From: an uncultured Pseudomonadota bacterium | Lineage (GTDB): Bacteria; Pseudomonadota; Alphaproteobacteria; Rs-D84 | NCBI GenBank assembly: GCA_902771095.1 | Contig: CACXVH010000009.1 | Coordinates: forward strand, 1-45,203 | Reading direction: 5' to 3' | DNA length: 45,203 bases | Part shown: in pieces, positions 25,466-44,087 of the stretch | Numbering within the stretch: position 1 is the stretch's first letter | How the letters are laid out: each line of letters begins with the position of its first letter | Position numbers and translations under genes: made by a program | Notes under the pieces: generated by a model | Told to the model about the DNA's origin: nothing | Database searches by the model: none | Seen by the model: the letters and a program-made list of their open reading frames with translations, nothing else

Positions 25466-27241
25466 ATGACAGCTAATGAATTGCGTAGATTGTATATAGA
25501 TTTTTTTATAAAACGTGGTCACAAAGAAATTCCATCGGCATCGTTGATACCAGAAAACGACCCATCTGTTTTGTTTACTACTGCTGGGATGCATCCATTG
25601 GTTCCTTATTTAATGGGTGAATCTCATCCACTGGGACAACGTTTGGTTAGTTGTCAAAAATGTTTGCGTACAGGCGATATTGACGAAGTAGGTGATGCTA
25701 CGCATTTAACTTTTTTTGAAATGTTGGGTAATTGGTCGTTGAATGATTATTTTAAAAAAGAATCTATTGGATTTTCGCATGAATTTTTGACCCAGGTTTT
25801 AAAAATACCGCAAGAAAAAATAGCGGTGACTTGTTTTGCTGGTGATGAATCTGCGCCACGGGATACAGAATCTGCCAAGATATGGCAAGATTTGGGTTAT
25901 CCAAAAGAACGCATATTCTTTTATGGTAAAAAGGAAAATTGGTGGGGACCTGCAGGAACTACTGGACCTTGTGGACCAGATACAGAAATATTTTATATTC
26001 ACGATAAACCAGATTGTGGCCCGAATTGTGGTCCTGCGTGCGGTTGCGGCAAATATGTTGAAATCTGGAATAATGTGTTTATGCAATTTAACAAAGACAA
26101 AGACGGCAATTATGTCCCGCTTGGACGCCATAATGTTGATACTGGATTGGGGTTTGAACGTGCCTTTTGTTTTGTGAACGGTGTATCAAGTGTTTATGAT
26201 ACAGAATTATTCAAACCTATTATTGATAAAATAAGTGAATTAACGAACACAAAATACGAACCAAACAATTACAAGGCATATCGTATCATTGCGGACCATT
26301 TGCGTGCTTCTACATTTATATTGGGGGACGATCGTGGAATTGCGCCATCAAATGTAGACCAGGGCTATATCTTGCGTCGCTTGATTCGTCGTGCCTATCG
26401 TTATTTGACGCAGACGAACGCACCGGCAAACGCGATGGCAAAGATAGCAAAAGTTGTTATTGAAAAATACAAAGACATATACCCAGAATTGGAACGCAAT
26501 CAAGAATTTGTAATAAATTCATTAAATCGCGAAGAAGAAATATTTTCACGTACACTTGAATCTGGTATGAAAATCGCGAAAAAGTATCTTGAAAATGTGG
26601 CAAATAATCAACTTGCTGCGGCGGATGCGTTCAGATTATATGATACCTTTGGTTTTCCGCTTGAATTCACCCAGGAACTGGCAACTGAATATGGTGTATC
26701 TGTGGATGCCGATGGTTTCCATAAACTTTATGCGGAACACCAAGAAAAATCTCGTGCCGGGGCAGAACAAAAATTCAAAGGTGGACTTTCAGATGATTCA
26801 ATCGAAACAAGACGGTTGCATACTGCGGCTCATTTAATGTTGGCTGCATTGCGCCGTGTTTTAGGTGATTCTGTTATGCAAAAGGGGTCTAATATCACAC
26901 CAGAACGTTTGCGTTTTGATGTGTCATTTAACAGACGCATTGAACCAGCAGAATTGGCAGAGGTAGAAAAAATAGTGAACGATGCAATTGCGGCGGCTGT
27001 ACCCGTGGAATGTACGGAAATGCCATTGGATGAAGCACGTGCATCTGGTGCTATTGGTGTTTTTGGTGACAAGTATGGCGAAGTGGTAAAAGTTTACAAG
27101 ATGGGCAAGTGGTCAAATGAAATCTGTGGTGGACCACATGCCGCTAATACTGGTGAATTGGGCAGATTCAAAATATTAAAAGAAGAATCTAGTTCTGCCG
27201 GGGTCCGAAGAATCAAGGCCGTATTGGTCCAAGATAAATAA
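25466..27241 (+). CDS. alaS: Alanyl-tRNA synthetase, compact form
   Basis: The 591-residue enzyme charges tRNA-Ala. Its class II catalytic domain is complete (ELRRLYIDFFIKRGHKEIPSASLIPENDPSVLFTTAGM, TFFEMLGNWSLNDYFKKE, VDTGLGFERAF, IIADHLRASTF, GYILRRLIRRA). It carries a Cys-rich insert (PDCGPNCGPACGCGKY). The editing domain keeps its zinc ligands HTAAH (His452, His456) and CGGPH (Cys554, His558). Compared with the E. coli enzyme (875 residues) about 110 residues between catalytic and editing domains and the whole C-terminal C-Ala/DHHA1 domain are absent. The N-terminus resembles the short AlaRS I associate with candidate-phyla bacteria. A GAGGAAC site precedes the ATG. Confidence 0.9.
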   Translation: MTANELRRLYIDFFIKRGHKEIPSASLIPENDPSVLFTTAGMHPLVPYLMGESHPLGQRLVSCQKCLRTGDIDEVGDATHLTFFEMLGNWSLNDYFKKESIGFSHEFLTQVLKIPQEKIAVTCFAGDESAPRDTESAKIWQDLGYPKERIFFYGKKENWWGPAGTTGPCGPDTEIFYIHDKPDCGPNCGPACGCGKYVEIWNNVFMQFNKDKDGNYVPLGRHNVDTGLGFERAFCFVNGVSSVYDTELFKPIIDKISELTNTKYEPNNYKAYRIIADHLRASTFILGDDRGIAPSNVDQGYILRRLIRRAYRYLTQTNAPANAMAKIAKVVIEKYKDIYPELERNQEFVINSLNREEEIFSRTLESGMKIAKKYLENVANNQLAAADAFRLYDTFGFPLEFTQELATEYGVSVDADGFHKLYAEHQEKSRAGAEQKFKGGLSDDSIETRRLHTAAHLMLAALRRVLGDSVMQKGSNITPERLRFDVSFNRRIEPAELAEVEKIVNDAIAAAVPVECTEMPLDEARASGAIGVFGDKYGEVVKVYKMGKWSNEICGGPHAANTGELGRFKILKEESSSAGVRRIKAVLVQDK

Positions 27242-27648: not shown

Positions 27649-28659
27649 TTAATTCTGTATACCAGATATACCTTTTTTGCATAATTCGGCATAGATAGGT
27701 TTGTCTAACCCATATGCTTTGATCAGTGCACTGGGCTTTTGGTTGCACCAGAGATCCCGATAGGAAACAATGCTGTTTTTAACCGTTTTAATCAGCCCAC
27801 TGGGTAGTTCGGCACGTCCTATGCACGAAGACAGATAAACGAAACATTCGTCGTTGTCAGCCAGATTTTCACAGGCTAAAATACGGGCATAGACATTAAG
27901 GGTCAAATCTGCCTTACTGGCATCTTTGGTCCAAGGGCTGCCACCTCCAATCGGACAAGCGGTAGAATAAAAGTCACAGGCCAATTTTCGCCCTGTAATG
28001 CCGCAGTCTGCGATGGAACTGTGGTATGTATATCGTCCGGTGCCGTTTACTATTATGCGTTCCGGTCTTTCACCCAATACTGATACAATCAAATCCGTCA
28101 GGTCTTCATCCTGTAACATAGGGATTGCTACAATAGCGGTTTCTATCCGGTCATCATTAAGGGTAATTTGTGTCTTGATGTCCAGCCCCAGATTCTCAGA
28201 TCTGCGTGCCGCTGTGTACAGGGCATCGTTTAGCTTTCGTGCAAGGAATAATTCCCTGTTTATCTTACCTTCGCCTTTGCAGGCATATCCAACAAACACG
28301 CCTTGATCGCCCCAGCCATCTTGATCAACACCTTGGGCAATATCGGACGATTGTACACCGATCATATTGATAACTTTGATTTGCGCTGGGTCAATTGCAT
28401 ACTTGCCCCATATAGTCGCATACCGTTCATCGTATCCTATTTCGGATAGGGCATTCTTAACATGGGTAATCAAATCGCCTAGTAGGGCAGAGGTAGTAAC
28501 TTCGCCACCAAGGACAACGGTGTTATCTTTGATCATAACTTCAACGGCATATCTGGTATGTGGATCTTGTTCGATTAACCTATCAAGTATGAAACTTGAA
28601 ATGTAATCAGCAATTTTATCTGGGTGTCCCAATGACACTGCTTCAGCTGTTCTTTGCAT
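27649..28659 (-). CDS. metK: S-adenosylmethionine synthetase, short divergent form
   Basis: The 336-residue enzyme makes S-adenosylmethionine from methionine and ATP. It keeps AVSLGHPDKIADYIS (His12, Asp14), GGEVTTSA, GDQGVFVGYA, NGTGRYTYHSSIADCGITGRK and a glycine/lysine loop GGGSPWTKDASKADL, where the usual form is GGGAFSGKDPSKVDRS. It is about 48 residues shorter than the E. coli enzyme (384) and starts directly at the substrate-binding block. Its base composition looks less AT-rich than its neighbours, which may point to transfer. The ATG is preceded by AAAGGAG, which can be hidden in a hairpin (see the leader entry). Whether another metK exists in the genome cannot be seen. Confidence 0.85.
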   Translation of the reverse strand: MQRTAEAVSLGHPDKIADYISSFILDRLIEQDPHTRYAVEVMIKDNTVVLGGEVTTSALLGDLITHVKNALSEIGYDERYATIWGKYAIDPAQIKVINMIGVQSSDIAQGVDQDGWGDQGVFVGYACKGEGKINRELFLARKLNDALYTAARRSENLGLDIKTQITLNDDRIETAIVAIPMLQDEDLTDLIVSVLGERPERIIVNGTGRYTYHSSIADCGITGRKLACDFYSTACPIGGGSPWTKDASKADLTLNVYARILACENLADNDECFVYLSSCIGRAELPSGLIKTVKNSIVSYRDLWCNQKPSALIKAYGLDKPIYAELCKKGISGIQN

Positions 28660-28815
28660 GTTTTACTCCTTTGGTTTTTTTGCATTAGAACCAAAGGTGG
28701 ATTGCGACGTTGTACCACGCATAATGCACGTTGAAAAACGGGAAATAAGCATATAACAACTCCTTGTTTAGTCCATTTATAAGGCAGGACAAGTCAGGTT
28801 AAATCCACCTTTATT
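28660..28815 (-). promoter_or_regulatory. metK 5' leader with competing RNA helices
   Basis: Read on the minus strand, AAAGGTGGATT (28802-28812) is perfectly complementary to AATCCACCTTT (28693-28703), an 11-bp long-range helix. The 3' arm overlaps CCTTTGGTT (28689-28697), which is perfectly complementary to AACCAAAGG (28668-28676); the latter contains most of the metK Shine-Dalgarno AAAGGAG. The two helices cannot form together, so the leader can switch between an open and a sequestered ribosome binding site. A third small structure (CTTGT...ACAAG, GTCC...GGAC) lies between. I see no match to SAM-I, SAM-II or SAM/SAH aptamers from memory. Confidence 0.6.
28663..28752 (-). CDS. 29-residue leader peptide upstream of metK
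   Basis: An ATG at 28752 with a perfect AAGGAG site seven bases upstream opens a 29-codon frame (MLISRFSTCIMRGTTSQSTF, then a GSNAKKPKE end). Its TAA stop lies three bases before the metK ATG and is embedded in the metK ribosome binding site region. Translation through it would pass over both arms that form the sequestering hairpin. This is the layout of a regulatory leader peptide or a translationally coupled small protein. There is no run of methionine codons. Confidence 0.55.
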   Translation of the reverse strand: MLISRFSTCIMRGTTSQSTFGSNAKKPKE

Positions 28816-28821
28816 GAATGT

Positions 28822-28850
28822 AGTATAACAAACTTAAATGATAAAATCAA
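28822..28850 (-). promoter_or_regulatory. Promoter of the metK leader transcript
   Basis: On the minus strand TTGATT (28845-28850) is followed after 17 bases by TATACT (28822-28827). The expected start near 28815 gives a leader of about 155 bases. Confidence 0.6.
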
Positions 28851-30013: not shown

Positions 30014-30121
30014 GGTTTGTATGGTGTTTTTGAATGCACCTTAGGGGGCTTTTGATGTCGGTATTGAATTTTGTCTTCACTGTGGTACAATATGTTTAAT
30101 AAAAAAACAAAGGGCAAAAAT

Positions 30122-30748
30122 ATGACCAAAATATATCAAAAAATTTACACAGATGAATCTGGGACAAAGCCTAAAGAAATCGAATGGACTATTGAAGAAT
30201 TGCAAAATAGTGTTGTAAATAGTGAATCTATAAATAATTACTATTGTGCCGACAGAAACAAAGGAGCTTGGTTGTTTACAGATAAGATCAATTTTAAATT
30301 AGAGAATGAACAGTGGAGAAAATGCGATAAGATACAGTATTATGGTTATGAGATATATGCCAGCAATCGTGGTCGTATAAAAGTTAGAAAAGATGGCTGT
30401 GAGTGTATTTGTGCACTTTGTGAAGAGATAACCCCAGGGAAAGATATAAATTCTGCCTTGTTCAAATTTTTAATAGACAATAACGAGAAACATATAGGAT
30501 GGTTGAAAGCTAAAATTTCGGGGAATAAACGTTGTCTGGGACCATACGTTTATCAAATGGTCGCGGATGCTTGGTTCCCAGATTATGCCTACGGAGAAAC
30601 AGATGGTCAAATACATCATATAACAAACGATGGATATGATAATCGCCCTGAAAATTTAATTATATTGAAAGAGAACGAGCATAAGAAGATCCAGCATTAT
30701 GGACTGTCAGATCCTAGATATTATCCTGGCAAATATGATAAAAAATAA
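30122..30748 (+). CDS. NUMOD4-HNH endonuclease
   Basis: The 208-residue protein has a NUMOD4-like motif in the middle (CDKIQYYGYEIYASNRGRIKVRK) and a C-terminal HNH nuclease motif starting at about residue 161 (DGQIHHITNDGYDN, then RPENLIILKENEHKKIQH). This resembles phage and intron-type homing endonucleases that cut double-stranded DNA. The start at 30122 is chosen because the longer frame from 30071 would begin inside a promoter-like TACAAT region. It is convergent with the WYL regulator gene. It could be a free-standing homing endonuclease or part of a defence locus. Confidence 0.75.
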   Translation: MTKIYQKIYTDESGTKPKEIEWTIEELQNSVVNSESINNYYCADRNKGAWLFTDKINFKLENEQWRKCDKIQYYGYEIYASNRGRIKVRKDGCECICALCEEITPGKDINSALFKFLIDNNEKHIGWLKAKISGNKRCLGPYVYQMVADAWFPDYAYGETDGQIHHITNDGYDNRPENLIILKENEHKKIQHYGLSDPRYYPGKYDKK

Positions 30749-30771
30749 AACATCCAAAGTTTGTGCACGTT

Positions 30772-31827
30772 TTAGTTTTTCATAGAATCCAGACATTTGT
30801 TCAACAATTTCTTGTATTCAATCAGTAATTCTTTTGGTTTAACAGGGATTATATCACCACCCCATTGCGTTAAATATATACATATAGCACGCAAACCACC
30901 AGTACGCATTTTTACTGTCATTGTGCCATCTGGGTTATTTATGAATTTTTGGGTTGGATGAAATTGATATTTTTTGACTATTTTGATTACTTCTGGATCT
31001 TTAATTAACCATTCTATATCATACATTGTGCCATCGTTATAGATGCCAAACATATCTTTTGCATATGATTTAAGTGAAAAACTGTTGTCTTTATTAAATC
31101 TATTACCTGTATCAACCACATTGGTAATATTTGCCATGATATAATGTCTAGGATCGGTGCAGACTTTGCCGTTTTTACAAATATAAGCAACAAGATAAAC
31201 ATTATTAGGGCCATACATAATTCCCAAAGGACAGACAGTATGTTCACGATTGTTATACATAAAGCGTATTTCATGCTGTTTACTTATTGCAGAATCTAGC
31301 AATGATTTAATATTTGGATCAAATCTTATGTCTGGGCGCGGACCAACAAAAGCAAAATCAGCATTTATCATTTGATCAATATCGTTTATCTTGCTCGCTG
31401 CTCGTTTCGGTTCTGTATGTTCGATTTTACGGTATAATCTGGTGGTAAGTTTTGCTTTCAAATTTTCCAATAATTTGTGTTCATTTAGATTATTTGCTGT
31501 TTTTTGAATGGCAAATTCCAAAGCCCGAATTTCAGTATCATCAATTGTGTCTGGAAAATCATGTAAATCTAATTTATAAGCACCAGCTTCTTCTTCCAGT
31601 TGGTCACCATATGAATCTTTGATAGAATCTAGTGTGCGTTTAACCGTTCTCTCACTTACCTTGTATTCCGCAATGTTTTTACAATCTGCAGGGGTTTTAC
31701 CCAAACGTTTATATTCAGAAGATAAAAAATTCCGAATATCTTCACGTGTCATATAATTGGCACGTAATGCGTTAATAAGGTTTAATTTTATATCGGTTTT
31801 CTTGTAATTGTTGCGCGATTCAGACAT
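30772..31827 (-). CDS. WYL-domain transcriptional regulator
   Basis: The 351-residue protein has an N-terminal winged-helix region (about 1-90: TDIKLNLINALRANYMTREDIRNFL...VSERTVKRTLDSIKD), a WYL domain in the middle (about 185-250: KQHEIRFMYNNREHTVCPLGIMYGPNNVYLVAYI) and a C-terminal WCX-like part (about 285-345). WYL proteins sense nucleic acid or nucleotide ligands and often repress defence genes. It is divergent from the AAA+ ATPase operon with a 123-base gap that holds a palindromic motif, so it probably controls that operon and itself. Confidence 0.85.
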   Translation of the reverse strand: MSESRNNYKKTDIKLNLINALRANYMTREDIRNFLSSEYKRLGKTPADCKNIAEYKVSERTVKRTLDSIKDSYGDQLEEEAGAYKLDLHDFPDTIDDTEIRALEFAIQKTANNLNEHKLLENLKAKLTTRLYRKIEHTEPKRAASKINDIDQMINADFAFVGPRPDIRFDPNIKSLLDSAISKQHEIRFMYNNREHTVCPLGIMYGPNNVYLVAYICKNGKVCTDPRHYIMANITNVVDTGNRFNKDNSFSLKSYAKDMFGIYNDGTMYDIEWLIKDPEVIKIVKKYQFHPTQKFINNPDGTMTVKMRTGGLRAICIYLTQWGGDIIPVKPKELLIEYKKLLNKCLDSMKN

Positions 31828-31890
31828 TTTTGCTTCTCCGGTTTATATACCGATATGATATCAAATATTTGTTTATAAGTAAAGAACAAT

Positions 31891-31905
31891 GGACCAATTC
31901 TGTCC
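31891..31905. promoter_or_regulatory. Candidate operator, copy 1
   Basis: GGACCAATTCTGTCC is a near-palindrome (GGAC...GTCC) between the divergent WYL regulator and AAA+ ATPase genes. A 13/15 match occurs upstream of the FtsK-like gene (36863-36877, reverse strand). It is a candidate binding site for the WYL protein. Confidence 0.45.
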
Positions 31906-31950
31906 AAAAGATTAATTATATTAAATGTAAACCAGGCAAAAGAGGCTATT

Positions 31951-34029
31951 ATGAACATAAAAGATAGACAAATTATTTTGCGTTATTTAAGAAATATGGT
32001 GAACAGCGAATATGAACCAGAAGATATGGATTTTTTTATCCGTAAAATTTCGCAATATTCTTCTGATTTATTCGGGTTTTGCTTGAGAGATGTATTAAAT
32101 GGTAACGATAAATTGACTTCTGATGATGACAAGGCTGTTTTTGTCACGAATTTATTAGACGGCAAATTATGGCGTAATGTTTTGTCATCAGAAGACGGTT
32201 TGCACCAACATGTATCAAAAATATTTGATGCTAGAAAGGATGATTATAAAGTCGATATAACTAAACCAGATTTTGATAAAAATTTTACAATGATATGTGA
32301 TACTTTTGATTTGCCAGATAATTGCAGACGTTTATTACAGTTTTTGGTTTGTATGAAAAATAACATGATGCTACGCAGATTGCTGGGGTGTTATAACGAT
32401 GATATAGATCGTGATTATTTTTTGAATGAAAATAATTCGGATTTTATAGCAACTGTATGCAAAATGCCTGCCCAAGAAATCAGGGAAGCATTTGCTCAAA
32501 ATGGACCATTGTTTGAGTCAGGTATATTAAAAAATCGTTATGGTGATAATGAATTTAATAAAACATTTTTGGGGTTATTAACTATGAACTTTAAAAGTTG
32601 TAAAGAAGTGCGTGATGTTTTGGTTGGTAGTCCTTTATCAACAATGCTAAAACGTGAAAATTTTGATTATATGTTGGATGATTTTGATAAAGTATCCGAA
32701 ATTTTAACCAACGGAATTAATACAAACAGCAAGGGTATAAATATCCTTTTGTATGGTTTGCCAGGAACAGGAAAAACAGAAATAGCAAAAACAATTTGTA
32801 ATCGTGCAGGGTTAAATTTATATACCACATCTGAAAAACAAGAAGAAAAAGATGGTAGATTATCAAATCTGGCGCAGATGCAAACCGTATTGAAAAATGA
32901 AGAAAAATCGGTCATTTTGTTTGACGAAGCAGAAGATGTGTTTTCTCTCTATCCGTTTAGTAGGCATAGCCCCAGTAAATTATATATAAATCGTATATTA
33001 GAAAACAATAAACGCCCGGTGATATGGATAACAAATAATTTGGAAGACATGGATAAAGCATATGTTCGTAGATTTTCGGTTGCGCTGGAAGTATCTAACC
33101 CAGATGAACGTGCAAAAATTAATGCCTGGAAACGTATATTTGAAAAGTACGAACTTGAAATTTCTGATGAAGATATCAAAGGATTAATAAATAAATATCA
33201 GGTTCCAATATCTATGATAGAAACGGCTGTGAAAAACGCAAAAATTGTGAACAATATTAATTTCGTCGATTATACTTTGGAACATTTAACAATGGCTATG
33301 ACTGGCAAAGTAAAGAGAAAGAAAAAATCAAACGGTGTAAAATTCAATACAAAACTGTTGAATACGGATATTGATTTAGAAAAATTAGCAAATCAAATCA
33401 ATAACAAGAAATTGAATAATTTTTCGTTATGTCTTTATGGTGCGCCCGGAACCGGAAAAACAGCTTTTTGTGAACATTTGGCGGACTTGTTAGGATTAAA
33501 TATAATAAAAAAACGCGCAAGTGATATAAATAGTAAATGGGTTGGCGAAACTGAACAAAATATTGCAAAAGCATTTCAAGAAGCCCATGCTCAAAAAGCT
33601 ATGTTAGTTTTTGATGAAGCAGACAGTTTCCTTATGGATCGAACACGTGCCGGCCATTCATGGGAAATTAGTGGTGTTAATGAAATGTTAACCCAAATGG
33701 AAGCGGCAGAATATCCGTTTGTTTGTACAACCAATTTGATGGATAATATAGATAAAGCAGCACTGCGTAGATTTTCTTTTAAGGTTAAATATGATTTCTT
33801 GAAACCAGATCAAGTGATAACCGCCTTCAAAGATTTTTTCAAACAAGATGTAACACGCGATGAAATTGTTGATTTGGTAAATCTTGCACCTGGGGATTTT
33901 GTGGTGGTAAAAAATCAAGCCGATTTACTGGATATTACTGATAAATCTGAATTATTATTCAGATTGCGCCAGGAACAACAAGTTAAAAATTGTCGTGAAC
34001 ACAAAGTAAAAATAGGATTTCATTTTTAA
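31951..34029 (+). CDS. Double AAA+ ATPase (SpoVK/Cdc48-like)
   Basis: The 692-residue protein has a helical N-terminal domain (about 1-240) and two AAA+ modules. Module 1 has Walker A GLPGTGKT (269-276) and Walker B ILFDEAED (Asp325, Glu326). Module 2 has Walker A GAPGTGKT (497-504), VGETEQNI and Walker B LVFDEAD (Asp555, Glu556). Both contain RRFS arginine-finger-like segments (YVRRFS, ALRRFSF). Such proteins form rings that remodel or unfold partners. It is the first gene of a three-gene operon with a nuclease and a DNA glycosylase; the next gene follows after 46 bases. A remodelling role on DNA or protein is inferred; the substrate is unknown. Confidence 0.82.
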   Translation: MNIKDRQIILRYLRNMVNSEYEPEDMDFFIRKISQYSSDLFGFCLRDVLNGNDKLTSDDDKAVFVTNLLDGKLWRNVLSSEDGLHQHVSKIFDARKDDYKVDITKPDFDKNFTMICDTFDLPDNCRRLLQFLVCMKNNMMLRRLLGCYNDDIDRDYFLNENNSDFIATVCKMPAQEIREAFAQNGPLFESGILKNRYGDNEFNKTFLGLLTMNFKSCKEVRDVLVGSPLSTMLKRENFDYMLDDFDKVSEILTNGINTNSKGINILLYGLPGTGKTEIAKTICNRAGLNLYTTSEKQEEKDGRLSNLAQMQTVLKNEEKSVILFDEAEDVFSLYPFSRHSPSKLYINRILENNKRPVIWITNNLEDMDKAYVRRFSVALEVSNPDERAKINAWKRIFEKYELEISDEDIKGLINKYQVPISMIETAVKNAKIVNNINFVDYTLEHLTMAMTGKVKRKKKSNGVKFNTKLLNTDIDLEKLANQINNKKLNNFSLCLYGAPGTGKTAFCEHLADLLGLNIIKKRASDINSKWVGETEQNIAKAFQEAHAQKAMLVFDEADSFLMDRTRAGHSWEISGVNEMLTQMEAAEYPFVCTTNLMDNIDKAALRRFSFKVKYDFLKPDQVITAFKDFFKQDVTRDEIVDLVNLAPGDFVVVKNQADLLDITDKSELLFRLRQEQQVKNCREHKVKIGFHF

Positions 34030-34075
34030 TCGTATTTAGGATATCATAACAATAGATTAAACAAATGGATTATAT

Positions 34076-35542
34076 ATGATAAAAATATCAAAATCAGATT
34101 ATGTACTTGGTATAAAATGTCCAAATGCAATATGGTTCAAGAAATACCGCAAAGATTTACAGCCAGAAATGAATCAGGCAGTATTAGATAATGGAACCGC
34201 GGTTGGTGAATTGGCTTGTGATAGATTCCCAGGTGGTGTTCGTATTGTCGCTAAACCATGGGAAGATACTGCAATTACACAAACTAAATCAGCAATATCA
34301 GGAAACGTGCCATTTATTTATGAAGCAACATTAAGTACTGATACAGGTGAATATTGTGCTGTGGATATTTTGCGTAACAACAATGACGGAACATGGGATA
34401 TACTAGAAGTCAAATCAACCACAGAACCCCACGATTATCATTACATAGATGCATCTTTTCAACGTTATGTATTTACCAAATGCGGAATTAATGTTCGTAA
34501 TTGTTTTATCATGACGTTAAATAAAGAATATGTTCGTCATGGGAATTTAGATTTGGAACAATTATTCGCCTTGCATGATGTAACAGAAGATTTACAAGAT
34601 ATTGAAACCGTACAGCATGAAATCGAAAGAATAAGAGCTGTTTTGGGCGGCACAGAGCTTGGTATCGCGATATCCAAAGTAAAATGTAACAAATTCTATG
34701 AATGTCCGTATAAACATCATTGTTGGAAAGATGTACCACAATATTCTGTGTTTGATGCTTTTAAAGGCGCAATGGCAGATAAAGTATATTCTGAATATGG
34801 TGCAGATTTAAGCAATGTTCCTGCTGGTGTTCGCGCTAATCAATCACATCCTGGTGATATAGAAGCATTTTTGAAAAATACAGATGTGATAAATAAAGAT
34901 ATTTTACGTGATTTTACCAATGGGTTGCGCTGGCCACTATATTTTTTGGATTATGAATCAATAATGTCTGTTGTCCCAATGTTTGATAATTCCAGACCGT
35001 ATCAACAGATTTGTTTCCAGTTTTCATTGCATGTGCAGCGTGAACCAGGTGCAGAATTGGAACACTATGAGTATCTTCATAATGAGTCTGGTATAGACCC
35101 CAGACCTGGATTGATAAAAAAGTTAATTGAAATCATAGGCAATGCTGGATCTGTAATTGTTTATAACCAAATATTTGAACAAGGTCGTAATACAGAAATG
35201 GCGCGTGATTTTCCAGAATACGCAGAACAATTAAATGCGATAAATGCCCGTATGGTTGATTTGTTGATACCTTTTCGTGCACGTGGATTGTATCGTCCGT
35301 GTCAGAATGGGAGTGCCTCGATCAAACAAACATTACCAGCATTTGTGCCAGAAATGTCTTATGAAAATCTTGGAATACATAATGGAACCGAGGCTAGCGA
35401 TCAGTTTATGGCATTCATGACAGGAAAACAAACGGCAGAGCAGACCAAAGAAATGATGGCCAATCTGCACGAATACTGTGGACAAGACACAATGGCAATG
35501 GTAAGATTGTTAGAAGTGATACAGAAAGTTATAAAGGAATAA
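34076..35542 (+). CDS. DUF2779 protein: Fe-S PD-(D/E)XK nuclease plus DEDD-type exonuclease-like domain
   Basis: The 488-residue protein has two nuclease-like halves. The first (about 1-225) has a PD-(D/E)XK core (Asp97, then Glu111-Val-Lys113 in EVKSTT) and four cysteines (Cys15 and Cys204/Cys210/Cys216 in CNKFYECPYKHHC) placed as in Cas4/AddB-type Fe-S nucleases. The second (about 280-488) starts with YFLDYES (Asp292, Glu294), continues with VYNQIFEQGRNTEMA and ends with HEYCGQDTMAMVRLL, as expected for the RNase H-like domain of DUF2779. DNA or RNA end processing is inferred. It is the second gene of the AAA+ operon. Confidence 0.8.
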   Translation: MIKISKSDYVLGIKCPNAIWFKKYRKDLQPEMNQAVLDNGTAVGELACDRFPGGVRIVAKPWEDTAITQTKSAISGNVPFIYEATLSTDTGEYCAVDILRNNNDGTWDILEVKSTTEPHDYHYIDASFQRYVFTKCGINVRNCFIMTLNKEYVRHGNLDLEQLFALHDVTEDLQDIETVQHEIERIRAVLGGTELGIAISKVKCNKFYECPYKHHCWKDVPQYSVFDAFKGAMADKVYSEYGADLSNVPAGVRANQSHPGDIEAFLKNTDVINKDILRDFTNGLRWPLYFLDYESIMSVVPMFDNSRPYQQICFQFSLHVQREPGAELEHYEYLHNESGIDPRPGLIKKLIEIIGNAGSVIVYNQIFEQGRNTEMARDFPEYAEQLNAINARMVDLLIPFRARGLYRPCQNGSASIKQTLPAFVPEMSYENLGIHNGTEASDQFMAFMTGKQTAEQTKEMMANLHEYCGQDTMAMVRLLEVIQKVIKE

Positions 35543-35545
35543 AAT

Positions 35546-36061
35546 ATGAATATAAAAACCTTGTTGAAAAAAACAATTTTGTCTCGTCATAAAATAAAAC
35601 CGTTTAATATTGATGCTGCAAAAGTTGTAATATTGGGAACATTTCCAGGCGAAGAATCATTAAAGTGCAATAAATATTATTCAAACCCCACAAACAAATT
35701 TTGGGAACTTTTAGGAATAAAATTTGGCGATTTTGAAGCATTAAAAGACAAAGGTATCGGTTTGTGGGATGTAATAAAATATTGCGACAGAGACGATAAT
35801 GGTAAAAATACGAGCGCTGATAAACATATAAAAAACGAGGTTTATAACGACCTTTTTAAATTAAATGGCAAGAATATACTTTTTAATGGTAAGAAAGCGT
35901 ATAATTACTACATAAAAGCAAAGAAAAATCCTAAATATGCAAATTGGCCAGAAGTTGACGAAGATAAAATATTAAAATCAAGTAGTGCGGCTCTTTCTAT
36001 GAAATTTGAAGAAAAACAAAAAGATTGGAATAAAAAACTGAAAAAATTGGGGATTAAATAA
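35546..36061 (+). CDS. Hypoxanthine/uracil-DNA glycosylase-like protein (UDG family 6 type)
   Basis: The 171-residue protein has the UDG-superfamily motif 1 in the form VILGTFPGEESLKCNKYYSNPTNKFW, close to the ILGS-PG--SL----YY--P-N-FW pattern of family 6 (HDG), and a late SSSAAL segment in the motif 2 position (LPS-SPA in relatives). Family 6 enzymes excise hypoxanthine from DNA. It follows the DUF2779 gene after 3 bases and ends at a terminator, so it is the third gene of the AAA+ operon. In this context it may act on modified or deaminated foreign DNA; that is inference. Confidence 0.78.
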   Translation: MNIKTLLKKTILSRHKIKPFNIDAAKVVILGTFPGEESLKCNKYYSNPTNKFWELLGIKFGDFEALKDKGIGLWDVIKYCDRDDNGKNTSADKHIKNEVYNDLFKLNGKNILFNGKKAYNYYIKAKKNPKYANWPEVDEDKILKSSSAALSMKFEEKQKDWNKKLKKLGIK

Positions 36062-36075
36062 ATCTCCATTTTTTT
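36049..36075 (+). terminator. Terminator of the AAA+ operon
   Basis: GGGGATT (36049-36055) pairs with AATCTCC (36061-36067, one G-U pair) and is followed by seven T. It overlaps the last codons of the glycosylase gene and the stop of the convergent FtsK-like gene. Confidence 0.55.
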
Positions 36076-36823
36076 ATTCTTCAATATATGGTGTGTTTAT
36101 AAGAACAGGTATTCTTCCGGCATTGCTGAACAAGGCTTCATTATGTGTAGTTAGTTTTTCTGCACCGGGTTCGCCTAGTATTTTGATCGCTTCTCGTTTG
36201 TATGCAACCCAAAAAGCCAATCTGACTGGTAAATACGCTTTCAATAAATTGCTGATTTTATCAAAATTATAAGATGTGATGATTAAATGTATGCCTGTGG
36301 CACGAGATTTTTCCGCTAGATTTATGATATTTTTTTCTACTTTTTTACCAAAGAAACTAATCATCATTGATAATTCGTCAATCAATATAATATGAAAAGG
36401 CAGTTCGTTGTCAGAATGTTGTTGGTTATATTCAATAATATTTTTTACACCATTGTTCGCAAACAAAGTGTATCTATTGTCCATTTCTTCAACGATATTT
36501 TGTAAAGATTGCATACATTCATCGACATCATCCACAATTGTGGTCAGGTTCGAATAATTTTCAAAATCTATACCTTTGGGATTTAATACAGTGATTTCAC
36601 AATCTTCGGTTGAATACATGTTCCTAATTGTATGAATCACAGATTTCAAAAACATCGTTTTTCCTGTCCTGGCACCACCACCAATCAATAAATGTGGCAT
36701 TTTGTGTAAATCTTGTATAAACGGTTTATCGTTTATATCTGTGCCTAAAATTATGGGTAAGGTAGCTTTGGATTTTTTATATTCTTGGCTTTGTAATAAT
36801 TCTGATAACGGTGTGTTTTTCAT
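36074..36823 (-). CDS. Stand-alone FtsK/SpoIIIE-type DNA translocase ATPase domain
   Basis: The 249-residue protein corresponds to only the motor domain of FtsK: LPIILGTDINDKPFIQDLHKMPHLLIGGGARTGKTMF (Walker A), TVLNPKGIDFENY, ILIDELSMMISF (Walker B), AEKSRATGIHLIITS, and a late GEPGAEKLTTHNEALF. No membrane segments and no gamma domain are present. The ATG at 36823 fits the GGAG site; further upstream ATGs lie at 36829 and 36835. A copy of the motif found upstream of the AAA+ operon precedes it, so it is probably co-regulated. It could translocate DNA for the nuclease module. Confidence 0.82.
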   Translation of the reverse strand: MKNTPLSELLQSQEYKKSKATLPIILGTDINDKPFIQDLHKMPHLLIGGGARTGKTMFLKSVIHTIRNMYSTEDCEITVLNPKGIDFENYSNLTTIVDDVDECMQSLQNIVEEMDNRYTLFANNGVKNIIEYNQQHSDNELPFHIILIDELSMMISFFGKKVEKNIINLAEKSRATGIHLIITSYNFDKISNLLKAYLPVRLAFWVAYKREAIKILGEPGAEKLTTHNEALFSNAGRIPVLINTPYIEE

Positions 36824-36862
36824 ATACATCTCCATGTTTGTTCATATTATAAAACACACATG

Positions 36863-36877
36863 TGACAAAATTGGTCC
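36863..36877. promoter_or_regulatory. Candidate operator, copy 2
   Basis: The reverse strand reads GGACCAATTTTGTCA, matching the motif at 31891-31905 in 13 of 15 positions. It lies 40 bases upstream of the FtsK-like start codon. Confidence 0.45.
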
Positions 36878-36988
36878 GTTTTGCTAATTTTTATCTGGGT
36901 GGGTGGTGGTAGGCGGGGGCCCCATGCGATATTGTGGTGTATGTTTATAACAAATATTTTATGATATTCTGATTAAAATCATAAAAAG

Positions 36989-37141
36989 TTGCAAAACAAG
37001 AAAAAGAGCTTTCTCTTAAACCGTATCATTGATATAGCAAGATATACGGCTGAGATTACAAACGGTTCGATAAATGCTAAAAAACGCGAATTCTTTAAAA
37101 TGATATTATCGAACGGAGAGCTAAAAGGCAAAAGTGTTTAA
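36989..37141 (+). CDS. Doubtful 50-residue frame, possible gene remnant
   Basis: A frame with a TTG start encodes about 50 residues, including NRIIDIARYTAEITNGSINA and KKREFFKMILSNGELKGKSV, which reads like protein sequence rather than chance. There is no ATG before residue 37 and no clear ribosome binding site. It may be the tail of a lost gene. Confidence 0.25.
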   Translation: MQNKKKSFLLNRIIDIARYTAEITNGSINAKKREFFKMILSNGELKGKSV

Positions 37142-37195
37142 AAAACCTTTCGAAAAGCTACTTTTTTGAAAGGTTGTAAATTGTGGATCAGAAGT

Positions 37196-37354
37196 ATGAA
37201 CTTTGGTAGTGTAAGAGAAGTCTTAGATTTACTTGGTATGGGTAAGAATGTTTCAGATCTTATGCGGCGTCTTCGAACAGAAAATGTGTCAACCCAGCAG
37301 AACTCTGGCAAAAACAGTCAAAATGACACCAATGCCGACAATCAGCTCACCTGA
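37196..37354 (+). CDS. Doubtful 52-residue frame
   Basis: An ATG at 37196 opens MNFGSVREVLDLLGMGKNVS, followed by a polar Asn/Gln-rich tail that ends at the tRNA-Asn-like repeat. There is no ribosome binding site. It could be a truncated coding sequence interrupted at the attachment-like site. Confidence 0.2.
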   Translation: MNFGSVREVLDLLGMGKNVSDLMRRLRTENVSTQQNSGKNSQNDTNADNQLT

Positions 37355-37369
37355 CACACGGATTAACAG
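37352..37369. other. Left attachment-like direct repeat (tRNA-Asn anticodon segment)
   Basis: TGACACACGGATTAACAG matches TGACATACGGATTAACAG at 44807-44824 in 17 of 18 positions and in the same orientation. The right copy lies inside the 3' half of a tRNA-Asn and covers its anticodon loop, anticodon 3' stem and variable loop, a classic crossover site for tyrosine recombinases. Confidence 0.5.
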
Positions 37370-37442
37370 TTATGAACTGGTTGATCAAAAAGTGCCGGAT
37401 TTCTGCGGGTTTGCGAAGGTTTTTATAGTGTGTAACGAAAAC

Positions 37443-37680
37443 CCGTATGTCAAATGTATGTTTTAAAGAACATATATAGAAGATATAAAAACCAATCTCC
37501 ATACACCATTTTTTGTGTGTTCCCCAATAACTTAAATGAATTCTCATTTGAGAAATGAAATAAACATACATTTCAATCAAACATACATGTATAGAAAATG
37601 GGACCAAAATGCCCCAAAATTGCAATGTTTCGACCTGGTGAAATTGGCGGTTTTGACATACCGTATGTGCACATACATGT
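37443..37680. repeat. Left cluster of CGTATGT/ACATAC repeats
   Basis: Exact CGTATGT occurs at 37444 and 37662. The longer form CCGTATGTCAAATGTATGTT (from 37443) matches elements near 44460, 44648 and 44909. Further ACATACAT motifs occur near 37563, 37581 and 37671. Confidence 0.5.
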
Positions 37681-37860
37681 ATGCATTTTTAAGGGATTAA
37701 ATCGGTATGAAAGACATATTTGGCTGGTTATTTATATTGAAAAGAATATGTTTTTTTACTACGTTATGTATGTAAAAATAATCGTGAAATAAAATCATCT
37801 AAAATTTGCAAATATAATATATAGGAACAGTTATAACTTTGTTGAGTTTTTTAATAAAAA

Positions 37861-38481
37861 TTATTTCTTTATACTTTCGACAAGTTTGTAAATTCCGGCA
37901 AAAGGCGAAATGTCGTATTCTTGTGAATATATTGCAGATTGTTGCCAGTTTTTTGCACGTTGTAATGCGTAACTGCATCCTTTCTCCATCTGTTTCATAT
38001 CAAAATAAGGTTTGCATGCTTTTTCGTTGGATCTGGTTTTATGTATGTAAGAAGGCATTTTCTCATGAAGCAAACTTTGGCACTCTTTCTTTGTATTTGG
38101 AATGTTTTGTACGTTGCAGCATAGCAGTCCCCATGTTTCTATTGTTGGGGCATTAAATGCAATATTTATGGGTGTACATCCTCGTTTTAAGTTTTTATTA
38201 AAATCATCGATTTTCTTGTAAGCAACTTTGACCTTGTCGTGATCGTCGTTATCAAAAATTACCCATAATTCTGATTTTTTACCCAACCAACGATTGCGTT
38301 CAGAAAAATCTATAGCTCTCATAGCAAGAGTTTCTGGATCTGCCGATTTTTTGTAAACAAACACATACGAGCAATCATACAAATTGCATAGATTGGTTAT
38401 ATAGTTTGCTTCTGTTCCTATATCTCCTCCTTCACAAGCTAAATATATTGTTTTCTTTATTCTGGAAACATCTCTTGCCAT
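37861..38481 (-). CDS. rloB: RloB-like protein
   Basis: The 206-residue protein has the RloB pattern: TIYLACEGGDIGTEANYI, then ELWVIFDNDDHDKVKVAY and an INIAFNAPTIETWGLLCC segment. These acidic clusters suggest a Toprim-like nuclease fold. It overlaps the 3' end of the AAA15-type ATPase gene by 25 bases and has a very strong GGAGGAG ribosome binding site inside that gene, so the pair is translated together. AAA15-RloB pairs occur in restriction loci and as AbiL-type phage-exclusion systems; that function here is inference. Confidence 0.8.
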   Translation of the reverse strand: MARDVSRIKKTIYLACEGGDIGTEANYITNLCNLYDCSYVFVYKKSADPETLAMRAIDFSERNRWLGKKSELWVIFDNDDHDKVKVAYKKIDDFNKNLKRGCTPINIAFNAPTIETWGLLCCNVQNIPNTKKECQSLLHEKMPSYIHKTRSNEKACKPYFDMKQMEKGCSYALQRAKNWQQSAIYSQEYDISPFAGIYKLVESIKK

Positions 38482-39743
38482 TGCTTTTCTCCTCCAGGAA
38501 ATGGAATAGCGCCATATTTCCCATTTATGTAATCCCTTTCTAGGTTTTTATCAAAGCGAGGGTTTATATCTGTTAAAGGATATATACGACTTTCTCCGTT
38601 GCTATTTTTTTCAGTGAACCATATTTCGTCAACCCTCCAGATTTTATGAGATAACAAATATGTGTTATGTAATGCCGCAATTATTTGTCCTTTTCCGTTA
38701 TCGTTCAATAACATATTTAAAATTGCCTCTGTAATCAATGGATGCAAAAGGCTATCTAATTCATCTAAGAGTAAAATTTTTTCAAGTTGTTTTTGCATAA
38801 ACAAACTCAGAGACAAATGGATTAGTTTTTGCGTTCCGGCAGACTCATAAGCTAGTTCAAACGGTATATCACAACCAGAATGTTTAATCATAAGTTGCTT
38901 GCACTTTATTTGGTTGTTTTCATTACTAAAAACAAATAATCGATCAGTTGTTACTTGTGCTATATGTTCTCCTGGATTCAAGGTAATAACAGGAGAGTTA
39001 ATAGAAAGTGCTGGAGTTGGCACGTCTTCAAACATAACATTTTCTATCCCAATATCTGCATTATGAAGCAACTTTACTAAGAATGTTCGGAATGTCTCTG
39101 TTTGAAACGCTTTATAAAACTGTTCGCCTACAGTCACAGATTTTTCATTTATGTATTCAATACTATGAAAAAAATCTAATGCCGCTTTAATATGTTCATA
39201 TCCGTCGATTTTATTGGGAATTACACCATAATACGCCTCTAAAGAAGAAATCCACGGCACAAAGGGTTGAGCAGTTTTGTCCTTGTTATACCAAGAAGAA
39301 GACAGTGTTTTTCCGTATTTTATATTTAATTGGTTGCGTTCAAATAACAGTTCCTCTTTGTCTCCCTTTTGAAAACAAAAACGTTCTGTGTGAATTTGGC
39401 CCGCATAAACAGATAATGTGTATGAATATTTTGTGCCATTTTTCAAAAAATGTACTTCAAACACAGGATTGGCGGACTGATCTTTATTAAAAAAATTTTG
39501 AACCAATAATTGAATCGGATTTATGTTACCCAACCATGGTGCTTTGATTATATCCGCAAAGATTTTTAATGCTTGTAATATGTTTGTTTTTCCTGAAGCA
39601 TTGGCTCCATAAATAACAGCTCCAGACAACAAATTATCGCTAATGATGTGCTCTGGATGTTGTTGAATTTTTGATTTTTCCATGGAAATTGTGGCTTTGT
39701 CTTTGAATGATGTATACCTAGAAATAGAAAAATCTATCAACAT
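38457..39743 (-). CDS. rloA: AAA15/OLD-like ATPase (RloA/AbiLi-type)
   Basis: The 428-residue ABC-class ATPase has Walker A GANASGKT (46-53) and Walker B LLLDELD (Asp327, Glu328) followed by SLLHPL, with the signature-like SAGTQKLIHLS before it. The D-loop and H-loop region (IAALHNTYLL) follows. RloA-type ATPases act with RloB as a presumed phage-sensing and nuclease pair. The ATG at 39743 is preceded by AAAAGGAG. It is divergent from the DUF2188-GIY-YIG operon with a 383-base gap. Confidence 0.82.
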   Translation of the reverse strand: MLIDFSISRYTSFKDKATISMEKSKIQQHPEHIISDNLLSGAVIYGANASGKTNILQALKIFADIIKAPWLGNINPIQLLVQNFFNKDQSANPVFEVHFLKNGTKYSYTLSVYAGQIHTERFCFQKGDKEELLFERNQLNIKYGKTLSSSWYNKDKTAQPFVPWISSLEAYYGVIPNKIDGYEHIKAALDFFHSIEYINEKSVTVGEQFYKAFQTETFRTFLVKLLHNADIGIENVMFEDVPTPALSINSPVITLNPGEHIAQVTTDRLFVFSNENNQIKCKQLMIKHSGCDIPFELAYESAGTQKLIHLSLSLFMQKQLEKILLLDELDSLLHPLITEAILNMLLNDNGKGQIIAALHNTYLLSHKIWRVDEIWFTEKNSNGESRIYPLTDINPRFDKNLERDYINGKYGAIPFPGGEKQWQEMFPE

Positions 39744-39886
39744 GTTCGACTCCTTTTGGTATCCTTAATTTTAATAAAAAAAAACGCCATGTCAAGACAT
39801 TTTTGTTAAAAATGCGTAAAATTGTCGTTGTTTTTATGACCGCTGACGCTGTTTTTGGTTGTTGGTGTGATTTTTTCACATTTTGC

Positions 39887-39915
39887 TTGACATTTTTGTT
39901 TTTCTGATATATAAT
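39887..39915 (+). promoter_or_regulatory. Perfect consensus promoter for the DUF2188-GIY-YIG operon
   Basis: TTGACA (39887-39892), a 17-base spacer and TATAAT (39910-39915) match the sigma-70 consensus at all 12 positions, the strongest promoter I see in the window. Transcription would start near 39922, about 205 bases before the first ATG. Confidence 0.8.
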
Positions 39916-40126
39916 GTGCTCGATGTTTGTGGTTGATACCAACAAGCACAAAAAAATCCCCAAAAATCCCGGCAAGATTTAAGGGGTACAATCAGAAAAA
40001 CTGATGTATTTGATGCTTAAAGCAACATCATTATATCATAATTTTGGTAAACAATCAAGCCAAAAGCGTTTTTCTGATTATGTGTGGACTCAACCCACGT
40101 AAAATAATGAGGTAAAGGAGACGCAA
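39916..40126 (+). ncRNA. Long structured 5' leader (possible regulatory RNA)
   Basis: Between the consensus promoter and the DUF2188 ATG lie several hairpins. GTGCT/AGCAC encloses a GGT/ACC stem (39916-39952). CCCC...GGGG closes a stem near 39957-39986. TCAGAAAAACTGA lies at 39992-40004. A long-range 11-bp pairing joins AATCAGAAAAA (39990-40000) to TTTTTCTGATT (40069-40079). No known riboswitch class is recognised and there is no internal T-run terminator. Confidence 0.4.
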
Positions 40127-40360
40127 ATGGCGAAACAAATTCATGTTGTTAGGCAAGAACCTGGTCGCTGGGCCGGAAAATTGCCGGGCGAAACAAAACC
40201 CGTTTTTGCCGGTATTGCCACGCAAAGGGAAGCGATACAGCAGGCGAATCGCTTTGCTCTGTCGCATGGTGGATCTGAAGTTGTGATTCATGGTACTAAT
40301 GGGCGAATTCGTGAAACCAATACCATAGGCAAACGCGATCCGTTCCCACCAAGGGGTTAA
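40127..40360 (+). CDS. DUF2188 domain protein
   Basis: The 77-residue protein matches the DUF2188 pattern throughout: IHVVRQEPGRWAGKLPGE, TQREAIQQANRFALSHGGSEVVIHGTNGRIRETNTIGKRDPFPPRG. The family is small, widespread on mobile elements and of unknown function. GGAGACGCAA before the ATG is a good ribosome binding site. It is followed after 80 bases by the GIY-YIG gene and is probably co-transcribed. Confidence 0.8.
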   Translation: MAKQIHVVRQEPGRWAGKLPGETKPVFAGIATQREAIQQANRFALSHGGSEVVIHGTNGRIRETNTIGKRDPFPPRG

Positions 40361-40370
40361 CAGGTTTGCC

Positions 40371-40396
40371 AAACGGGTGGTTCCGGACATCCGTTT
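40371..40396 (+). other. Hairpin between DUF2188 and GIY-YIG genes
   Basis: AAACGGGTG (40371-40379) pairs with CATCCGTTT (40388-40396) with one mismatch. It shares AAACGGGTGG with the hairpin after the GIY-YIG gene (40830-40856), but has no T run, so it may be a processing or attenuation site rather than a terminator. Confidence 0.4.
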
Positions 40397-40440
40397 ATAT
40401 TTGAAATATTAACATAACTTCACAAAATAAAGAGGTAAAA

Positions 40441-40824
40441 ATGGCAGAAGTTAAATTATATTGGAAAAAGTGCAGCCCAAAAACAGATTTTGAAACTGTT
40501 CCGGGAAAAGCAGGGGTTTACATCATATCGACGTTACAGAAAAGTGATGATAAATATGAGGTAAAATACGTTGGGCAAGCGTCAAACTTAAAAGAGCGTG
40601 CACAACAACATTGGTCAAAAAACGAACAAAATGTCGAACTGAAAAATCATATTGCAGATGGATATGCAATGAAATTCAGTTACGCAGAACTACCATCTCA
40701 ATCTGATCGTGATGGGGTAGAATTGTTTTTGTTTAAACATTTTGACCCTGTGTACAATAAATGTACCCCTTCGGCCAAAACACCAATGGCGTGTAATTTG
40801 CCGGAAGTGCGAAAGCATAAATAA
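40441..40824 (+). CDS. GIY-YIG nuclease domain protein
   Basis: The 127-residue protein is a minimal GIY-YIG domain: AGVYII (24-29), KYVGQ (42-46), the catalytic Arg in LKERAQQHW (Arg53) and the catalytic Glu in DGVELFLFKHFDPVYNK (Glu94). There is no added DNA-binding domain, so target choice must come from the domain itself or a partner. An AAAGAGG site precedes the ATG. It sits between an RloAB pair and a restriction-modification enzyme, which suggests a restriction or defence role. Confidence 0.8.
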   Translation: MAEVKLYWKKCSPKTDFETVPGKAGVYIISTLQKSDDKYEVKYVGQASNLKERAQQHWSKNEQNVELKNHIADGYAMKFSYAELPSQSDRDGVELFLFKHFDPVYNKCTPSAKTPMACNLPEVRKHK

Positions 40825-40829
40825 TCGAA

Positions 40830-40856
40830 AAACGGGTGGCTTTATGCCACCCGTTT
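40830..40856. terminator. Terminator-like perfect hairpin
   Basis: AAACGGGTGGC (40830-40840) pairs perfectly with GCCACCCGTTT (40846-40856) around TTTAT. It lies between the convergent GIY-YIG and restriction-modification genes. Confidence 0.6.
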
Positions 40857-40879
40857 CACAACGTTCCATGCATCATATA

Positions 40880-43800: not shown

Positions 43801-43993
43801 CATCGCCGGATTTAATCATAAAATCTGGCGCGCCAAATGTTCCCCTTTGTGGTTCGTTAATGGCAGTAATAGGTTTAGATGTACTTATTGATTCAAATAA
43901 TTTCTTTAATGCCGGACGATAAGAATGCTCTTTGGCAACGCCCGTTTTGAACTCTCTGTCTATATCAACCAAATATTCTGCAACGCCATACAT
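40880..43993 (-). CDS. Single-chain restriction-modification enzyme (type ISP/IIG-like)
   Basis: The 1,037-residue protein combines restriction and modification. An N-terminal PD-(D/E)XK nuclease has PDF (Asp57) and EAK (Glu71, Lys73). A helical region and YTPQPVVDYIVRAMDDIL lead into an N6-adenine methyltransferase with motif I DPATGTGTFL (Asp380) and motif IV NPPY (Asn529). A C-terminal target-recognition region follows from about residue 640 (SYRPFDLRYTYYTNK). No separate helicase block was identified with certainty. The ATG at 43993 is chosen because AGGAG lies eight bases upstream. No specificity subunit is adjacent. Confidence 0.85.
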   Translation of the reverse strand: MYGVAEYLVDIDREFKTGVAKEHSYRPALKKLFESISTSKPITAINEPQRGTFGAPDFMIKSGDAVIGFAEAKDIGVNRLDNLFDREIEQKERYLGGLPNLIYTDYLEFRFYQEGKETARIRIADFDGKTITPLPEKYHTLIDLIKDFYTVKTATIKSPLKLAELMAGKARLIADVIKGALAEQSENKSLYEQLESFRKILIRTMTEQEFADIYAQTVAYGMFVARLHDKTMHDFTRQEAATLIPKTVPFLRKMFDYIAGNDIDERIVWSVDSLASIFSYTDVADILKDFGRKTKTTDPIIHFYETFLSKYDRKLRKIRGVYYTPQPVVDYIVRAMDDILKTDFELPNGLADKSKITKKVHLQGHAKAEDKEFHRVQLLDPATGTGTFLATTVNYIHDKFKNNAGIWPNYVENDLLPRMHGFEIMMSSYTMAHLKLDLVLRETGYIQDDARINDKIFRQDNLFDTNLVTVKRNSAILNSNNRVGVYLTNSLEEADPDTQTLWAAQWLSDEAKEANNIKQNVPVMCVLGNPPYSVSSANMNDFARQLIEKYKIGLNEKKLNLDDDYIKFIALGQHYIEKNGSGILAYISNNSFLDGITHRQMRKSLMESFDKIYIVNLHGNSRAHETAPDGTKDENVFDIRTGVSINIFIKNSKSKKLADVYYRDVYGKRDKKYDFLTDHNLTNSELKILKPVEPYYFFTPKDFSIKTSYNKGFYICDLFLSNTTGIETQKDLLAIQFDQEKLKEIIDDLRKYPETTIRNKYDIGDDGRDWVLKDVQNNLNSVDYDIRKLVKISYRPFDLRYTYYTNKKSLVAYPRFTVMQHMLKTNYALCLPRTTNNIGWCVASHISDKHFIGAQTYVFPLYIYTNDDKNPNLNPQIVREIERNIGQTTPEAIFDYIYGVLHSPSYREKYREFLKIDFPRIPYPENKDKFEHYRKYGEQLRKLHLMTDVPQSDVHFPIGGDCVVDKPTYDNGRVYINGTQYFDNVPQTAWEFYIGGYQPAQKYLKDRKGRTLTPEEVMHYENIITVLQETDRIMKEI

Positions 43994-44087
43994 AACAAAA
44001 ACTCCTGTATTCATTACCTTAAGGGTAGCAGATGCCGATAAATTTATCAACAGTTATAATAACAAAGTATCATAGAGTTCTATTAGT

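Follow-up and report, generated by a model that had tools for sequence, protein, structure and literature searches.

A SAM-II/SAM-V-type pseudoknot in the leader of a phage-type metK gene of gut alphaproteobacteria as a probable translational switch

Introduction

How is synthesis of S-adenosylmethionine (SAM) controlled from the leader of metK in the 45,203-nt stretch of alphaproteobacterial DNA analysed here, which is termed the window throughout? The gene (positions 27649-28659, minus strand, as are all leader elements below) encodes a phage-type S-adenosylmethionine synthetase of 336 residues, which carries the domains PF00438 and PF02773 and matches phrog_1569 with an E-value of 5e-73. 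Against TIGR01034 it scores 175 bits, below the 309-bit cut-off. An original prediction, made from the window alone, had described two mutually exclusive RNA helices and a short open reading frame (ORF) in the leader, and had left the choice between a riboswitch matching no known SAM class, stalling on a leader peptide, and an RNA-binding protein. We gathered relatives of metK at 80 loci and compared their leaders.

Results

Two mutually exclusive helices are nearly invariant among relatives

The leader can form an 11-bp helix between the 5' strand AAAGGTGGATT (28802-28812) and the 3', anti-aptamer strand AATCCACCTTT (28693-28703), or a 9-bp hairpin between the 5' arm CCTTTGGTT (28689-28697) and the 3' arm AACCAAAGG (28676-28668), the latter running into the metK Shine-Dalgarno sequence (SD) AGGAG so that arm and SD together span 28666-28676. 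Both helices are present on the minus strand as predicted and have the five bases 28697-28693 in common; the hairpin indeed buries the metK ribosome-binding site (RBS), covering AAAGG of the SD AAAGGAG (28672-28666). A helix of 11 bp is only moderately unusual in the window alone, being reached in three of 100 shuffles, and its significance therefore lies in conservation. Across the leaders of 36 distinct relatives, identity to the window reaches 99-100% in the pairing segments (99% for the anti-aptamer strand and the hairpin 5' arm, 100% for the 3' arm with the SD), whereas it is 41% in the loop of the hairpin and 60% in the interior of the ORF. The anti-aptamer bases 28703-28698, which lie outside the hairpin, are 94-100% conserved.

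A search for compensatory changes in the long helix and the RBS hairpin among these relatives found none, because both are almost invariant; the rare changes, in L018 and L036, retain pairing as G-U. The covariation proposed as a check on the original prediction is thus absent from the two helices that it named, but present in the pseudoknot described below. An apparent full-length long helix in L029 and an apparent hairpin in L034 were scoring artefacts, and by sequence these leaders have 10-bp and 8-bp forms, respectively. In a nearest-neighbour model that folds RNA without pseudoknots, the ensembles with the long helix and with the hairpin have energies of -43.0 and -39.3 kcal/mol, so that the long-helix state is favoured by ~3.7 kcal/mol in the absence of ligand. 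Ligand and pseudoknot, both outside the model, could surmount this gap.

The leader begins with a covarying H-type pseudoknot

The 5' strand of the 11-bp helix also forms the beginning of an H-type pseudoknot aptamer of 52 nt (28760-28811) that is of the SAM-II/SAM-V type. It lies at the start of most leaders of the metK relatives, where the window's clade reads GGUGGAUUUAACCUGACUUGUCCURCCU...GGACUAAACAAGGAG, and 81 distinct copies were aligned; searches used a covariance model of the aptamer, R1. The P1 strand AAGGUG (28806-28811), which is also part of the long helix, pairs with UGCCUU (28781-28786) and is followed by the third strand GAUUU (28801-28805). The P2a strand CCU (28796-28798) pairs with AGG (28764-28762) inside the first SD of the leader, AAGGAG (28760-28765, SD1), whereas the P2b strand UUGUCC (28787-28792) pairs with GGACUAA (28768-28774), leaving U28770 bulged.

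Both P1 and P2a covary, a single position showing as many as four kinds of Watson-Crick pair, as in a SAM-II fold with a P1 stem and a pseudoknotted P2. Among the 81 copies, the fourth P1 pair occurs as G-C, U-A, C-G or A-U, and the first P2a pair as U-A (56), C-G (16) or A-U (7). The whole pseudoknot has 97.6% of its cells paired in 52 sequences, against 91.6% in shuffled and 29-55% in slid alignments, all shuffle comparisons being inflated by the relatedness of the genomes. Since core bases and P2b complementarity were partly fixed by the search pattern with which copies were collected, pairing percentages in P2b do not count as evidence; the change of its fifth pair from C-G to U-A in L128, L130 and L134 does.

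The ligand core matches those of SAM-II and SAM-V

In the crystal structure of the SAM-V riboswitch, U47, the bulge in P2, pairs with the adenine of SAM and is in contact with U8. The ligand is flanked by the triples U20:A48.U9 and U19:A49.U10, its aminoacyl end is bound by A50, and the SD lies under P2a (PMC6061858). Every one of these contact bases has an equivalent in the window, and all are invariant in our alignment A1: U28770 for U47, U28803 for U8, U28791:A28769.U28802 and U28792:A28768.U28801 for the two triples, in which U28802 and U28801 correspond to U9 and U10, and A28767, just 3' of the P2b strand, for A50. The core thus has the U-rich third strand, the UUG and the C-U-A-A-A with a bulged U of the SAM-II and SAM-V ligand sites, with equivalents of G21 and C46 of SAM-V as well. 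GAUUU, CUUG and CUAAA are also common to canonical SAM-II copies; at the position preceding UUG, SAM-V has A18, whereas most aptamer copies have C, as do canonical genomic copies of SAM-II. Moreover, the P2a 3' strand (28764-28762) lies within AAGGAG, as in SAM-V, and covaries.

The Rfam models do not detect this likeness. Their SAM families gave no match in 75 nt of the window at E<=10, nor did all Rfam families, searched both at gathering thresholds and at E<=10, return a SAM family. The SAM-II model (RF00521) matched neither the 75 nt (E<=10) nor 16 relatives (E<=5) nor this genome, the SAM-V model (RF01826) failed to match on score, and R1 in turn detected none of the canonical SAM-II loci. 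Matches to STnc40, mir-9, rli60 and anti-hemB were weak and far below thresholds. We therefore agree with the original prediction that no SAM class matches, as far as sequence scores go, but the structural core is that of SAM-II/V. Judged by its conserved residues the aptamer would function like SAM-II/V, while membership of either Rfam family fails on score.

These residues point to SAM as the ligand. Sensing of another compound by the same fold, such as S-adenosylhomocysteine, methionine or another SAM derivative, is unlikely: aptamer variants of riboswitches can change ligand, as reported for a SAM-like spermidine class (PMC10853860), and part of the copies precede a protein family other than MetK (below), yet the residues that contact SAM or flank its sulfonium in SAM-V are all kept, and the main target is metK.

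The aptamer accompanies a mobile-like metK and a second protein family

We located the aptamer at 106 distinct sites, most of them in alphaproteobacteria from rumen and gut; three IMG/VR contigs are included. Their neighbours are metK at 86 sites, a family that we call GSPLSG at 15 and other or unreadable genes at five, counts that do not represent independent events as the genomes are related metagenome-assembled ones. With R1, two copies score 74.4 and 73.6 bits in the genome of the window, both preceding metK-like genes, and the next best match scores 17.1 bits. That match and another of 14.6 bits (G000:C1 and C3), together with weak ones at L125, L127, L132 and L133, look like chance. Within the order, the same model detects the aptamer in 60 of 201 genomes; across the class, it does so in 11 of 385 sampled genomes, four of them weakly.

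Members of the GSPLSG family (L115, L118, L121, L128-L131, L151, L158, L164, L169, L171-L173 and L175) have 145-193 residues and an invariant F-N...G...LW...W...G-x-x-LSG pattern (alignment A2), and are encoded directly under the aptamer. The family has no match in Pfam or the PDB, single members match a phrog and an NCBIfam entry without confidence (E 0.07 each), and the one member queried against viral contigs found no relatives there. A looser relative of the aptamer (L123, L124) precedes a longer protein that joins a GSPLSG-like N-terminus to a SprT-like domain. At another locus (L134:1019-2203), the aptamer stands before a 394-residue protein with a very weak Pfam match to S-AdoMet_lyase (E 0.04, below the cut-off).

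Aptamer and metK occur together on the three IMG/VR contigs. On one of them (L142), the gene immediately downstream of metK encodes a ParB-DNA methyltransferase, and terminase-like and recombinase-like ORFs can be read from the sequence. Within the order, metK is present in 50 of 190 genomes; the domain S-AdoMet_synt_C is absent from the other 140, so metK looks horizontally acquired, and the absence suggests SAM import or another source of SAM in the lineage. Could the leader then be non-regulatory, its conservation reflecting the recent spread of a mobile gene? The patchy, phage-linked occurrence of metK would suit this reading, but the hairpin loop and the ORF interior have diverged while the pairing elements have not, and the pseudoknot covaries and precedes unrelated genes as well. 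We consider it barely credible.

Other relatives of metK have no aptamer (L043, L065, L066, L068, L073, L074, L081, L082 and the phage record MT837927, L182). Their leaders of ~100 nt hold one or two terminator-like hairpins with U-runs just 5' of the metK RBS, which may be an attenuator of a different kind.

In the window, metK adjoins an island (30071-44050) with HNH-like, WYL, AAA, DUF2779/Cas4-like and FtsK-like genes, an Abi-like pair of RloB and an AAA_21 ATPase, and a type ISP restriction-modification enzyme. In addition, the alaS gene at 25466-27241 encodes 591 residues, shorter than the usual bacterial alanyl-tRNA synthetase, and its match to the tRNA-synt_2c model is confined to the first part, ahead of the SAD domain.

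The leader ORF is kept open through the metK ribosome-binding site

A sigma-70-like promoter (28850-28822) with the -35 box TTGATT, a 17-nt spacer and the -10 box TATACT preceded by TG lies ~10 nt 5' of the aptamer, and by sequence match the transcript is predicted to start at ~28815. Promoters scoring at least 9 of 12 were found in 52 of 70 distinct leaders of relatives, whereas ~12% of random positions score as high; the -10 box ends 10-11 nt 5' of P1 in 26 of these 52. Because the promoter is upstream of the aptamer, the whole leader is probably transcribed; a start 3' of 28752, named in advance as speaking against the original prediction, is unlikely.

The leader ORF (28663-28752) has 29 codons and a stop, exactly as described before. 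Served by SD1, which is partly inside P2a, it starts with the ATG at 28752, spans the anti-aptamer strand and the metK RBS hairpin, and stops with the TAA at 28665-28663, three bases 5' of the metK ATG (28659) and in the same frame as metK. Across 34 distinct leaders, its frame contains two stops, both of which end three bases 5' of metK, while the other two frames contain 44 and 33. In 33 of the 34 leaders the ORF ends between -3 and +85 relative to the metK ATG, in any frame relative to metK, and in L033 its frame continues into metK. The upstream ORF thus traverses the metK RBS to or past the metK start, as translational coupling entails, and its kept openness reads as a mark of ribosome passage through the RBS hairpin and not of peptide conservation.

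Attenuation by a leader peptide, in which stalling on a specific nascent peptide would control the helices, is accordingly very unlikely, even though start, SD and open frame are conserved and pN/pS is ~0.45 in close pairs. The peptide sequences diverge, their frame relative to metK is 0, 1 or 2, they have neither a conserved methionine run nor an arrest-like motif, and the leader ORF is missing altogether from more distant relatives. Since neither peptide nor frame is conserved, we reject the stalling proposed earlier; nor does anything in the evidence call for an RNA-binding protein.

Another alternative accepts a real SAM riboswitch but explains the extended leader by translational coupling alone, the 11-bp complementarity being a by-product or a minor structure. 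The ORF is open in the 34 leaders regardless of frame, as coupling needs, the two helices are invariant and do not covary, and the SD of the Sinorhizobium meliloti metA riboswitch serves a distant start without such a helix (PMC9373788). However, a need for the hairpin alone would leave bases 28703-28698 unconstrained, yet they are conserved, and the rare changes in L018 and L036 preserve pairing. We hold coupling alone to be rather unlikely and favour coupling combined with helix exchange.

Two expression platforms suggest a relayed translational OFF-switch

The aptamer is joined to metK in two ways. In the short platform, found in 42 distinct leaders or about half of the metK leaders, the SD of the aptamer is that of metK itself. 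In the long platform, which includes the window, 70-130 nt are inserted in about 39 leaders. The insert carries the anti-aptamer strand, the hairpin that buries the metK RBS, and the leader ORF, which starts 7-11 nt 3' of the aptamer GG and stays open as far as the metK start or beyond it. In two divergent aptamers (L075 and L077), L3 is longer and P1 is extended, and a leader ORF comes after the aptamer; in L075 the metK RBS is also covered by a CCTTTT/AAAAGG hairpin. They are perhaps an independent version of the architecture seen in the window.

Taken together, we propose that the metK leader is probably a SAM-responsive SAM-II/SAM-V-type pseudoknot acting as a translational OFF-switch, whose signal is relayed by coupling and helix exchange. 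In the short platform, SAM would stabilise P2a together with the triplex, so that the SD directly before metK is hidden. The insert of the long platform would relay the signal over ~100 nt. At low SAM, the 5' strand of the aptamer would pair with 28703-28693, breaking both the aptamer and the metK RBS hairpin; SD1 would be free, and ribosomes translating the leader ORF would pass through the hairpin into metK. At high SAM, P1 and P2 would form, SD1 would be covered, the anti-aptamer strand would be released, and the 9-bp hairpin would close to turn metK off. The ligand-bound aptamer is expected to favour the hairpin because the anti-aptamer strand, part of which also belongs to the hairpin, can pair only once the aptamer has opened. 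The coupling and helix-exchange layers would act in one direction. Riboswitch control of SAM synthesis, as originally suggested, is well supported; the sensor, though, is the overlooked 52-nt pseudoknot, and the two helices belong to the platform downstream of it.

Discussion

The aptamer adds an unlisted subfamily to the SAM-II/SAM-V superfamily, and a search of the open-access literature found no description of the motif. It sits on a mobile-like metK in reduced-genome gut alphaproteobacteria, most sampled relatives of which show no metK, and it points to the GSPLSG family as being under the same control. The two platforms form a natural before-and-after pair: the simple one would just hide the SD, whereas the derived one would work as a relay through ORF coupling and helix exchange; as both forms exist, the evolution of expression platforms is directly testable. 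The broadest picture is evenly balanced in our judgement: a mobile phage-type SAM synthetase gene would carry its own SAM-II/V-type sensor, absent from Rfam, whose folding in one clade gates a leader ORF and an exclusive helix, and the same sensor would control the GSPLSG family.

Among known systems, the SMK box (SAM-III) of Lactobacillales metK is a translational switch that sequesters the SD. The leader analysed here resembles it as a proposed translational metK switch but has another fold and no Rfam match to it.

With SAM-V (RF01826) the aptamer shares the H-type pseudoknot, the short P1, the single bulged U in P2, the U-rich third strand, a two-base P2a over the SD and, as proposed here, translational control. 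It differs in that SAM-V has a P3 stem, which nearly all aptamer copies lack, L3 being 5-8 nt in most copies and longer only in L075 and L077. Its P2b is UUGUCC/GGAC(U)AA, the aptamer as a whole is of another sequence and has no Rfam match, and its hosts are gut and rumen alphaproteobacteria and phages, whereas those of SAM-V are marine SAR11. The likeness to SAM-II (RF00521, SAM_alpha) extends to the GAUUU of L1, UUG, CUAAA, P1 and the pseudoknotted P2, as well as to alphaproteobacterial hosts and methionine or SAM genes. Compared to SAM-II, however, the aptamer is shorter (52 nt against 79 model positions), with a shorter P1, P2a and L3, it would control metK directly, and the RF00521 model misses it.

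The closest parallel to the long platform is S. meliloti metA, where the SD of a SAM-II riboswitch is needed for a start 74 nt downstream, the upstream AUG1 is not used in context, and an intrinsic terminator lies between the two AUGs (PMC9373788). In both systems, the SD of a SAM-II-type aptamer acts, or in the window would act, on a distant start. No such terminator lies in the leader of the window, which instead has an anti-aptamer strand, a hairpin that covers the second RBS, and an ORF that is open and probably coupled to metK.
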